A stretch of DNA of 64,000 bases, from assembly GCF_029542785.1 (NCBI RefSeq), contig NC_083378.1, positions 62,001-126,000 of the forward strand. The letters run 5' to 3'. This document shows positions 23,976 to 28,628 of the stretch, in pieces. The first letter of the stretch is position 1. Every line of letters starts with the position of its first letter. The notes beneath the pieces were generated by a model. That model was not told the origin of the DNA. It saw only the letters and a program-made list of their open reading frames with translations, and made no database searches. This stretch comes from Malassezia japonica. Its lineage: Eukaryota; Basidiomycota; Malasseziomycetes; Malasseziales; Malasseziaceae. The position numbers and the translations under genes are program-made.

Positions 23976-25743
23976 CTACTGGTTGATAGTCACAATTTGA
24001 ATGAGCTTCACTTGGAAGTAGTCAATCAAGTGGATCGAGATCCATGTGCCCATTATTCCGATACCAGTGTAGATCAGCAGACGAGGCCCATCTGAATCGT
24101 CAGCAAGGGTCATGTATCATTACGCACCGACACAGATTTTCTTATCCATGGAGTCCCACGAGGACATCTTCAGCTCCTCCTCGACTTCACTAGCGTTTGC
24201 AGAAGTATCCTGAGGTACGGCGCGACGGCGAAGACCAGTATGATCAACGTAAGTGACAGCACCCGTTGCACTTGCGCTAGGGGCATCCTCCTGCGTTTTG
24301 GAGAGAGAGTTCTGGCGAAGATGGGCAATGTTCAAGTAGACGAATGGAAACACTGATTTGATGACAGGCGTCGCCAAAATCTTGAAGATGATGATGGGAA
24401 CCACACCTATTGGTTAGAACAGTGGCAGTATGTGTACATACCAAATGACAAGCTGATAATGACCTTGAGGAACTGAATTTGGACCGCGTGGAACCAAACA
24501 TGTTCCCAAGCCTGTCGAACGAATGAGGGAGAATGACGTAGTAGCCATTGGAAAGACTTGTCAAGCAATGCATGGTCATGGTAGTAATATTGATTCGTCC
24601 TCCAGTTACCCAGAACGACACCAACCCAGGAGCCAACAAAGGCCACGGCTTATTGTTAGTATTCGTATACTTTGTACACTTACCATCATCGTAGCAAGGA
24701 CACGCGTCAACGGGCTGGATGTGCAATGCAAGGGAGAGACAGCCAGATCCAAAAATAACCATAGGGACTGTATAAGCTCTTGCTCATCGATACACACCCC
24801 ATACACTGCCAGAAAGAAGGAAGTCACCGAGCATCGGGTCAATCCAGATACAGAAGAGGGCCACAAAAAGTCCAATACATGACCCAACGAAGCAGTCTAC
24901 ACAGTTAGCCATCTGAACCAAGTGTCCTAACGTACCTAGCACACTGTGCATCCCTGAATACAAGCGTCCGTATACAATCGTGAAGGCATATAAAATGATA
25001 ATGCCCTCCAACAAGAAAGAATCAGTCATCCAATAAGTGAACACCGGATGTTCGTCCGACATCAGAGCCTGAACAAAAGGTCTGCATTGCAGCGTGAGAT
25101 AGTAAAAGAAGACAGACATGCCAATGCTGTTGGCAGAGTGTGTCGATGGAAACCCATATTCGAGATGATGTGTGCCGACCAACAGGCGACGGACAGGAGG
25201 CGAGAATGGGCGGGGAACACAAAAGTAATCCTAGCATGCATGTGTTAGAAACTGTAAAGTACAGCCAGCGTGACACACCTTGACAAATGCAGTAACATAT
25301 ACCGCGAGAGCCGAGGTCAAGATCAATCTGTCAAGTCAGCATCCAGGACATGGTGATGATACTTACATCCTGCCGGCGGACTCCCCACCAATTTGGTATA
25401 CGTGCGGAAGAAACAGCATAAAGAATGTATGCGTGCCCAAGACAGATGAATACATGAAATACCAGTCCAGCCATGGCCGGTGGACAACAGCCTAAACGAA
25501 TCAGTGTCAGTACTCCATCGCGCGTAAAAGAGGGCGACATACCTGGTGGGCGGCAAGGTTAGGCGAGTGGGCAGTCACATAGTCTGTTAGGGCCTTTCTA
25601 ATCTTCACCGCAAAGGCAGGTCTATTCAATGCGAACTTATCGAGAGCTGCCATAGTGTGCACGTAAGGTTGGGCGTCAGCCAGTCGTCGCACGAGACACT
25701 TGACGGCAGATTTCAAAGTTATGTTCGCGCCCGGTCCAGCCAT
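23976..25743 (-). CDS. Dihydrosphingosine/phytosphingosine-1-phosphate phosphatase (Lcb3-like, PAP2), nine exons
   Basis: ER membrane phosphatase that dephosphorylates sphingoid-base phosphates. Nine exons give 484 aa; introns at 24092-24127, 24407-24441, 24649-24683, 24768-24797, 24897-24935, 25231-25278, 25328-25366 and 25492-25542 (30-51 nt). PAP2 motifs are complete: KDYFCVPRP (K-x6-RP), GFPSTHSANS (PSxH type) and GRLYSGMHSVLDC (R-x5-H-x3-D). Several membrane helices follow, then VDACPCYDDAVAFVGSWVGV, typical of Lcb3/Ysr3. The donor of the 24768-24797 intron is uncertain; a site 9 nt earlier also keeps the frame. This is the most intron-rich gene of the window, and its ATG lies about 27 bp from the AT-rich centromere-like core, so its promoter must sit inside that core. 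Confidence 0.9.
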
Positions 25744-25770
25744 TCGGCCGGGGCATCAATCAAATCGCTC

Positions 25771-26220
25771 AACCAAAATAAAGAAAGCAATATAACATTT
25801 TCATAGTATCGATAATGTATTTATTAACTAAAAACAATACTAGGCCACCAAAACTAAAAAAACAAAATTATAATTACTGTATTATTTATATCAACTACAA
25901 ATTACAAATAATAAAAATATTTTACTGTATCCAAATATCAATATATAAAATACATGTAAAACATAAACCAATATACGTTTACTATACATGATAATTATGG
26001 AAAATAATCGAAATATTCAATAAACATATTGAATTACACTATTACTTCTTGTGTTTCTTTTTGCAATATATTAACATATATAATGTGCATAAACCAATAA
26101 TTCGAATAACATTGTAATTTATTAATATATAATTATAAATTTATATTTTGATGATTAGTATTAAAAGAGTCTTGTTAATACTTTTAAGTTTATATTAAAT
26201 TGAAAGGCTGTTGTGTATAT
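25771..26220. other. Candidate centromere core: about 0.45 kb extremely AT-rich block
   Basis: By my count 25801-26220 has 79 G/C in 420 bases (about 19%), against clearly GC-rich surroundings. No coding frame of note crosses it. The 12-mer CATAAACCAATA occurs twice in the same orientation (25962-25973 and 26088-26099); its inner ATAAACCA recurs inverted as TGGTTTAT at 26227-26234, and looser ACCAA-A copies lie at 25772, 25847 and 25930. A perfect 7-bp inverted repeat (ATTCAAT 26015-26021 / ATTGAAT 26028-26034) and a palindrome ATAAATTTAT (26135-26144) are also present. Malassezia species are known to have small regional centromeres with short AT-rich cores carrying a 12-bp motif. The context matches; centromere identity itself is inference. 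Confidence 0.72.
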
Positions 26221-26370
26221 AACTTGTGGTTTATCTTGTTCCTTTTCTATTTCGATTATCACGTGTAGTGATAGTTTGATCGGGCCTGCATGTGTGATGA
26301 CGTGAAAGTCCCTGGGGCACATGCAGTAAAGGGTGGCCCGTGGTCCCCCAAGCCCTAGTACCTGACTATA
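26221..26370. promoter_or_regulatory. Right flank of the AT-rich core / OTUB1 promoter
   Basis: Base composition returns to normal within about 60 bp. CACGTG at 26260-26265 lies at the border, and no coding sequence is seen before ATG 26371. Confidence 0.45.
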
Positions 26371-27402
26371 ATGAGCTCTAGCGGAACGGCATCAGAGTAC
26401 GTCGGCGCCCGTTGTGCATGTGATACTTACCCATTAGACTTGAGAAGCTTAGCGATTCTCAACGGCACGAGCTAGCCCAAAAGCTCGTTGACCAACAAAA
26501 TGCAGAGCAACCGCTCATCTCGGAGGTGGCGCCGATCGAGGTTCTTCTGCATGAATACGCGAACAACCGCCAGTTCTATAACAAAGTGAAGTGGCTTAAA
26601 GATCAATCTGACTTTGTCGGTATTCGTCGTCTGAAGGGTGATGGCAATTGCTTTTACAGGGCGTTCGGGTTTACCTACATCCACACCCTCCTTACAATGA
26701 ATGATCGGCCTCTGCATCACTTCACCACCCAGCACCTTGGCTCTACTCTTGAGCTGCTGAAGCAAGCGGGATTCGAGGAGGACGTTGTAAAAGATTTCTA
26801 TGATCCATTCCAAGAACTTATGGCAATGATGCACTCTACCGATCCCGCCACCCCGCAGCTGGACGAGAAGAAACTATTGGAGGTCTTTAATGATCCAGAA
26901 AAGAGCAACAGTATTGTCGTGTATTTAAGGCTACTGACTAGTGCATTCCTCAAGGTATGTTGAAATATTTGTCCGCCACTAACACCATCAGCTTAACTCC
27001 AATGACTACACGCCTTTCCTCGCTTCTGCCACTGGTGAAGAAGATCCCCCGACGATGGAGGACTTTTGTAACAAGGAGGTCGAAGCGTTTGGAAGAGATG
27101 CGGACCACCTCCAAATTACAGCTTTGAGCTCTGCGCTGAAAGTGAGCCTTGATGTCGTCTACTTGTCACGCTCGCATGCCCCGCCTGAGTCGGACTCTAT
27201 TACGGAGGAGGCCGATGCTGGCGCCAAAATGTCTGACAACAAGGACGTAAGCCCCGAGGGTGATCCGAATGCTTGCGACGTTGTCCGCTTTGATATTGAC
27301 CAAGGCCAAATGTTTGGTCTTGGTCCGTTGCTCTACCGTCCTGGCCACTTTGACCTGTTGGTGGCTCGCGAGGAGCCCGAGTCTCCCGACATTAATATCT
27401 AA
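26371..27402 (+). CDS. Otubain (OTUB1-like ubiquitin thioesterase)
   Basis: OTU-family deubiquitinase. Three exons (introns 26397-26437, 41 nt; 26955-26991, 37 nt) give 317 aa; the first exon is only 26 nt. The catalytic loop LKGDGNCFYRAFGF supplies Asp and Cys; the catalytic His is in YRPGHFDLLV near the C-terminus. The N-terminal ISEVAPIEVLLHEYANN corresponds to the ubiquitin-contacting arm of otubains, and RQFYNKVKWLKDQSDFVGIRR is the typical lead-in. An acidic insert (about 245-275) interrupts the last sheet. First gene to the right of the AT-rich core. Confidence 0.92.
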
Positions 27403-27629: not shown

Positions 27630-28628
27630 ATGGACAAGAGGAACATTGTTGAAGTGCTTCCTGAGAGGGTCGGGAATGTCTCATCGTCTTCGTACCCGTT
27701 GCAGGTTCCCGGCGAGTCTGGCGCATGGAGCAATGAAACCTTTGACGAGAACCTGCGCGTGGTTGTGACGCGCCTGACTACGGAGCAGTGCGAGTTTGAG
27801 ATGGTGGGAGTAGATGCTTCCATCGCCAACGCAATCCGCAGGACACTCATTGCCGAGGTTCCCACTGTTGCCATCGAGCATGTCTACATCTGGAACAACA
27901 CTTCCATTATCCAGGACGAGGTGTTGTCTCACCGTCTTGGTCTGGTCCCTCTTGCGATCGACCCCTCACGGCTGACTTTTAAGATGGATGACGAGGCCAA
28001 TGACCAAAATACGGTTGTATTCAACCTCAAAACCGAGTGCAGGAAGAAGGCTGGCTCGAAGGATGGCGCAGTCGAGGGCCGCTACGTCTACTCTTCTCAG
28101 CTCGAATGGGACCCGAAAGGCGACCAAGCCGAGACCATGGCAGATGCGCCTCCCAAGCCCGTGAACTCTGATATCGTCATTGCGAAGCTCGCCCCTGGCC
28201 AAGGCATGGAGATGGAGCTGCACTGTGAAAAAGGCATCGGTAAGGACCACGCGAAGTTCTCTCCTGTGGCCACCGCTTCCTACCGCCTGCTCCCCTACAT
28301 TGAGATCCTGAAGCTTGTGCCTGAGCCGCTGATACCCAAACTGATTTCGTGCTTCCCTGAAGGTGTGCTTGAGCGCGGTGGTGAAAATGGCGTCCAAGTC
28401 GCCGATGCACGGAAAGACACCGTAAGCCGGGAAGTGCTTCGGCACCCCGAATTTGAGGGCATGGTGCGGCTGGGTCGTATCCAGGACCACTTCCTCTTCA
28501 GTGTCGAGTCGACTGGTGTCTACGAGCCCGAGGCCTTGGTGCCTGCATCGGTCGACGTGCTTCGCAAGAAGCTTGCTCTGCTCAAGCTGGCGCTCGAGGC
28601 GCTGCCGACCGAGACTGTTCATACATAA
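27630..28628 (+). CDS. RPC40: RNA polymerase I and III subunit AC40 (Rpc40/POLR1C)
   Basis: Alpha-like subunit shared by RNA polymerases I and III, 332 aa, single exon. The dimerisation domain shows the signature VGVDASIANAIRRTLIAEVP followed by AIEHVYIWNNTSIIQDEVLS, HRLGLVPLAID. The insert domain, with CRKKAGSKDGAVEGRYVYS, and the second dimerisation half (FSPVATASYRLLPYIEILK) are present. The D-domain RxxxRHPEF-like segment is here SREVLRHPEFEGMVRLGRIQ, followed by HFLFSVESTGVYEPEAL. Length fits yeast AC40 (335 aa). Ends 30 bp before the stop of MCM10. Confidence 0.95.
   Translation: MDKRNIVEVLPERVGNVSSSSYPLQVPGESGAWSNETFDENLRVVVTRLTTEQCEFEMVGVDASIANAIRRTLIAEVPTVAIEHVYIWNNTSIIQDEVLSHRLGLVPLAIDPSRLTFKMDDEANDQNTVVFNLKTECRKKAGSKDGAVEGRYVYSSQLEWDPKGDQAETMADAPPKPVNSDIVIAKLAPGQGMEMELHCEKGIGKDHAKFSPVATASYRLLPYIEILKLVPEPLIPKLISCFPEGVLERGGENGVQVADARKDTVSREVLRHPEFEGMVRLGRIQDHFLFSVESTGVYEPEALVPASVDVLRKKLALLKLALEALPTETVHT

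Follow-up and report, generated by a model that had tools for sequence, protein, structure and literature searches.

An AT-rich core between two gene starts in Malassezia japonica is very probably the predicted centromere CEN8

We analysed a window of 64,000 nucleotides of the skin yeast Malassezia japonica, which corresponds to positions 62001-126000 of contig C9 (NC_083378.1, 535,366 bp) in an assembly of 8,433,779 bp in nine contigs, C1 to C9. Contig positions are given with the contig name, and all other positions of the locus count from the first letter of the window. A gap of 627 bp between two gene starts holds an AT-rich block, and the features at the locus are as follows.

24120..25743 (3′ end approximate), minus strand: LCB3-like (PAP2) phosphatase gene, split by introns, with a putative first ATG at 25743 and exons assigned by eye
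25708..26335 (C9:87,708-88,335), no strand: span holding the 560-bp stretches that have the published 23.9% G+C of CEN8, placed by this G+C match
25775..26280 (C9:87775-88280), no strand: AT-rich core, very probably M. japonica CEN8 of Table 4 in PMC7025860; maximal AT segment, 506 bp, 20.2% G+C
26371..27402, plus strand: otubain (OTUB1-like) gene, split by introns, with Peptidase_C65 in the ORFs 26424-26963 and 26983-27402, and with ATG and first intron assigned by eye
27633..28628, plus strand: RPC40 (AC40 subunit of RNA polymerases I and III), with RNA_pol_L and RNA_pol_A_bac domains

The minus-strand gene carries a PAP2 domain (E 1.5e-11 in the ORF 24784-25230, in a profile search for PAP2 alone), and the LCB3 name, which follows the earlier note and a general resemblance, is presumptive. 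The two plus-strand otubain ORFs match PF10275 with E-values of 3.1e-40 and 9.9e-22. Among the best 120 of 4699 matches to RPC40, the top-scoring named relatives come from M. furfur (84% identity), M. psittaci (81%), and M. cuniculi (77%), and three matches that rank above these are 88-98% identical. Between the core edge and the first ATG of the LCB3-like gene there are 31 bp, and the frame has another ATG at about 25653; the otubain ATG stands 90 bp away from the edge of the core, or 150 bp away from 26220. The earlier note had placed the two starts at about 27 and about 150 bp from the block. The otubain distance holds when measured from 26220, and the LCB3-like start does adjoin the block, with its distance corrected to 31 bp from the segment edge for an ATG that is itself putative. 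If translation begins at the first ATG, only about 31 bp separate it from the core, which therefore probably also contains the promoter of the LCB3-like gene; the alternative start near 25653 would weaken this reading.

In 25801-26220, 79 of 420 bases are G or C, exactly as first counted, against a window mean of 63.0% G+C. The lowest 420-bp stretch of the window (25775-26194) has 18.1% G+C, and the runner-up in the window has 45.2%. The block is also the G+C minimum at 100, 200, 400, 500, and 1000 bp across C9:1-256000, or 48% of the contig. Outside the block, the lowest 400-bp stretches in this region are the telomere array at 33% and then one at 37.8%, while at the 4000-bp scale two subtelomeric stretches (43.1 and 44.0%) fall below the block (45.9%). 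Samples from C9:256,001-535,366 gave 400-bp minima of 58.5, 44.3, and 40.7% at 320.0-321.6, 530.2-531.8, and 533.0-534.6 kb, respectively. A core shorter than 1 kb thus sits at the GC minimum within 256 of the 535 kb of C9; for the remainder, the reading relies on AT-word searches and on the single trough per scaffold listed in PMC7025860. The longest stop-free run within the core is 69 codons, and a DNA search of the nine contigs, with simple repeats skipped, returned no second copy of the 627-bp gap. Within the core, a pair of 12-base inverted arms spans 26004-26259: one arm, ATAATCGAAATA, is at C9:88004, and the complementary arm is at C9:88248.

The position of the block was compared with published predictions. 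Table 4 of Sankaranarayanan et al. 2020, eLife (PMC7025860) lists nine centromere predictions for M. japonica JCM11963, whose genome has 62.35% G+C, and places CEN8 at Scf8:87,314-87,873 with 23.9% G+C. Stretches of 560 bp with this G+C start at C9:87,708-87,776, an offset of 394-462 bp from the published CEN8. The two agree in length, in G+C, and in their distance from the end of the chromosome, in a comparison of these values rather than of the letters of Scf8, and no difference was found beyond the offset of about 0.4 kb. We infer that this offset arises because the draft scaffold lacks the 461-bp telomere array, which ends near 461 on C9. CTAATC-type telomere repeats begin all nine contigs, and their complement stands at the end of C9, the one contig end fetched, where telomere-like repeats make up most of the displayed part of the last 400 bp. 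Behind the CTAATC array, the subtelomere at C9:1-9400 has reduced G+C (about 39-45% in its lowest 1-kb stretches).

The remaining Table 4 coordinates were tried on C1-C8, read forward and reversed, with more than one scaffold assignment for the smaller contigs and, for Scf6, with both the printed start and a start guessed from the printed end. Published coordinates land on AT cores in six of the nine contigs, about 0.1-0.5 kb off. Cores were found on C2, C3, C4, and C5 (reversed) in four of 16 stretches fetched in this way and on C6 in one of 18, and the C9 core came from the window. At matched length and G+C, the offsets are 262-268 bp for C2, 196-248 bp for C3, 468-518 bp for C4, 89-225 bp for C5 (reversed), and 394-463 bp for C9. 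The coordinates of Scf1, Scf7, and Scf10 gave no core in the stretches tried on C1, C7, and C8. The C7 core, located later, lies just beyond the reversed stretch that was tried, and the positions of the C1 and C8 cores, simply counted from a contig end, disagree with Scf1 and Scf10. For Scf6, the core at C6:241,134-241,600 starts 166 bp past the printed start of 240,968. The end printed in Table 4 of PMC7025860, 250,550, conflicts with this start and with the length of 582; since the core fits the start, the printed end is probably a slip.

AT words taken from located cores were then searched genome-wide. Matches were picked for fetching by contig and by clustering, and most single matches on C1-C8 were left unfetched. 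Word-led stretches contained a core in one of three cases for C1, in none of one and none of two thereafter, in one of three for C7, and in one of four for C8. Coordinate-led and word-led stretches together yielded a core in eight of 47, with each of C1-C8 contributing one; 400-bp minima in the other 39 stretches are at least 40%. One core has been located on each of the nine contigs, with lengths of 455-514 bp and 17.8-21.9% G+C, C1-C8 having been sampled rather than scanned.

C1: 488,913-489,396, located by AT words
C2: 139,685-140,184, located by published coordinates
C3: 350,355-350,809, located by published coordinates
C4: 381,400-381,913, located by published coordinates
C5: 229,291-229,796, located by published coordinates, reversed
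C6: 241,134-241,600, located by published coordinates
C7: 260,025-260,489, located by AT words
C8: 493,180-493,670, located by AT words
C9: 87,775-88,280, within the window

In a BLASTN comparison among eight of these cores (all except C8, filter off), the best of the first 15 pairs was C2-C4, with 72% identity over 96 bp (E 8.6e-7). We do not accept this as homology, as AT-rich sequences were compared with the filter off.

Because published position, length, and G+C agree and each contig has one located core, we identify the block with high confidence, on sequence evidence, as the core of a short regional centromere, M. japonica CEN8 of Sankaranarayanan et al. 2020. The same two lines of evidence uphold the proposal in the earlier note of a Malassezia-type centromere core. 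The locus itself is not new, having already been predicted in PMC7025860. A block between two divergent gene starts could instead be simply an AT-rich divergent promoter or a replication origin, with no centromeric role. Nothing similar occurs elsewhere in 256 kb of C9, however, and the fetched stretches either have the 400-bp minima of at least 40% given above (39 of 47) or hold the single core of their contig. As the place also coincides with the published CEN8 prediction, we consider a promoter or origin alone very unlikely.

We then asked whether the cores have words in common. According to PMC7025860, the predicted M. japonica centromeres, with the exception of the one on scaffold 7, are enriched for a 12-bp motif. 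Words were ranked against dinucleotide shuffles in six cores (C2-C6 and C9). The numbers of words common to at least four of the six were 155 versus 162 in shuffles at length 6, 92 versus 107 at length 7, and 51 versus 44 at length 8. At length 9 there were 15 such words (shuffle mean 7.2, 99th percentile 16), and length 10 alone went beyond the 99th percentile of the shuffles, with 5 words (mean 0.64, 99th percentile 4). In a held-out-core test, AATAAATA gave p 0.002-0.035 in C2, C4, C5, and C6, uncorrected for the several words tried, and showed no enrichment in C3 or C9 (p about 0.5); most other top words failed this test in the six cores. Across eight cores compared with shuffles, AATAAATA was over-represented in five (C1, C2, C4, C5, and C6) and not in C3, C7, or C9, where one copy was seen and 0.68 expected. 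Its count was reached in 13 of 500 shuffles for C1 and 209 of 500 for C7, and C8 has two copies (count only). C1 and C7 are not independent tests, as both were located by words related to AATAAATA.

The best EM matrix that we derived from C2-C6 is weak and A/C-rich, and we do not propose it as the published 12-bp motif. It has 18 matches in the C9 core, the highest count in C9:1-256000; column-scrambled matrices average 13.5, and 9 of 200 reach 18. Its own training cores, C2-C6, hold only 4-9 matches each. A second peak of the matrix, with 10-11 matches per 500 bp, lies away from the core at C9:237301-238200. A single match to ATCAATCAAAT at 25755 was dropped as a motif, because it lies outside the core and because one match or more occurs in 22 of 100 shuffles at the one-mismatch setting. 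With AATAAATA not enriched and the 18-match peak reached by 9 of 200 scrambled matrices, the motif tests on C9 are mixed, and what its core offers may be a base composition rather than a word.

The absence of AATAAATA enrichment from the C9 core would also suit a vestigial centromere, one that has kept its AT content and lost CENP-A binding to an active centromere elsewhere on the contig, and M. furfur has two inactivated centromeres (PMC7025860). Inactivation in M. furfur was, however, accompanied by a loss of AT-richness (PMC7025860), whereas the C9 core is as AT-rich as the other eight. Moreover, C9:1-256000 contains no other trough, and AT-word matches at 320.8, 530.9, and 533.8 kb of C9 show none either, so that an inactivated centromere has very little probability in our judgement. 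A foreign or organellar AT-rich insert, which would account for the composition alone, is hardly credible, given that the gap has no second copy in the nine contigs (in a search that skips simple repeats), that the core has no long open frame, and that similar blocks lie on each of the nine contigs.

If the block is the CEN8 core, its function may be modelled on that of other Malassezia species. On the pattern of M. sympodialis and M. furfur, histone H3 would give way to CENP-A nucleosomes over the AT-rich core, and the kinetochore (Mtw1 and others) would be densest at the core and spread about 3-5 kb over the neighbouring genes. The core would at the same time probably hold the promoter of the LCB3-like gene. 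A literature search, mostly at the level of abstracts, found no kinetochore or CENP-A ChIP in M. japonica. In four other species, troughs of this kind bind Mtw1 or CENP-A or are depleted of H3 (PMC7025860). In M. sympodialis, Mtw1 ChIP-seq has its maximum at the intergenic GC trough, and the bound 3-5 kb includes active genes; all seven troughs of M. furfur show CENP-A enrichment by ChIP-qPCR; and for M. slooffiae and M. globosa, H3/H4 ChIP-qPCR shows lowered H3 at all nine troughs (PMC7025860).

In M. sympodialis, too, the AT core of the centromere is intergenic, in most cases shorter than 1 kb, and near genes; kinetochore binding has been measured there, whereas M. japonica CEN8 is a prediction from sequence. 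M. furfur cores (168-721 bp, 15.4-27% G+C, in a GC-rich genome) also resemble the CEN8 core, and M. furfur differs in having seven chromosomes and the inactivated centromeres mentioned above (PMC7025860). The earlier note had set the locus apart from a gene desert and placed a promoter in the core. The closeness of the genes stands, but the contrast loses some of its novelty, because the M. sympodialis trough is likewise intergenic and its Mtw1-bound region includes active genes. PMC7025860 further describes ORFs that lie inside M. sympodialis centromeres and are transcribed, at levels similar to those of ORFs elsewhere, so that a promoter in the CEN8 core would be an instance of a known arrangement and not a discovery.

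In Table 3 of PMC7025860, the row with MjCEN8 holds CEN1 of M. sympodialis, M. dermatis, and M. nana, CEN2 of M. slooffiae, CEN3 of M. globosa, CEN6 of M. vespertilionis, CEN4 of M. furfur, and, in part, CEN5 of M. restricta. In M. vespertilionis, an otubain domain is joined to RPC40 in a single protein model, which lies on a 760,715-bp contig. This is probably a gene-model error across neighbouring genes, and since both domains occur in one model, otubain and RPC40 probably adjoin in M. vespertilionis as well. M. vespertilionis CEN6 is placed at 739,896-740,558 of scaffold 6 (PMC7025860), which is likely the contig with this model.

PMC7025860 calls Malassezia centromeres the first short regional ones in basidiomycetes and proposes that centromere breakage or inactivation drives chromosome-number change in the genus. 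With this locus, nine cores are now located in an assembly of nine contigs. One possible, if doubtful, extension is that the M. japonica centromere is specified by composition and not by a shared motif, and that the CEN8 core is a two-way promoter, with the LCB3-like and otubain genes transcribed from start sites within CENP-A chromatin or on its border and with this transcription perhaps contributing to CENP-A loading. The M. japonica CEN8 block is real and very probably important to the cell without being a new kind of system, and it is a well-defined locus for testing whether an AT core of 0.5 kb can combine the roles of centromere and promoter.
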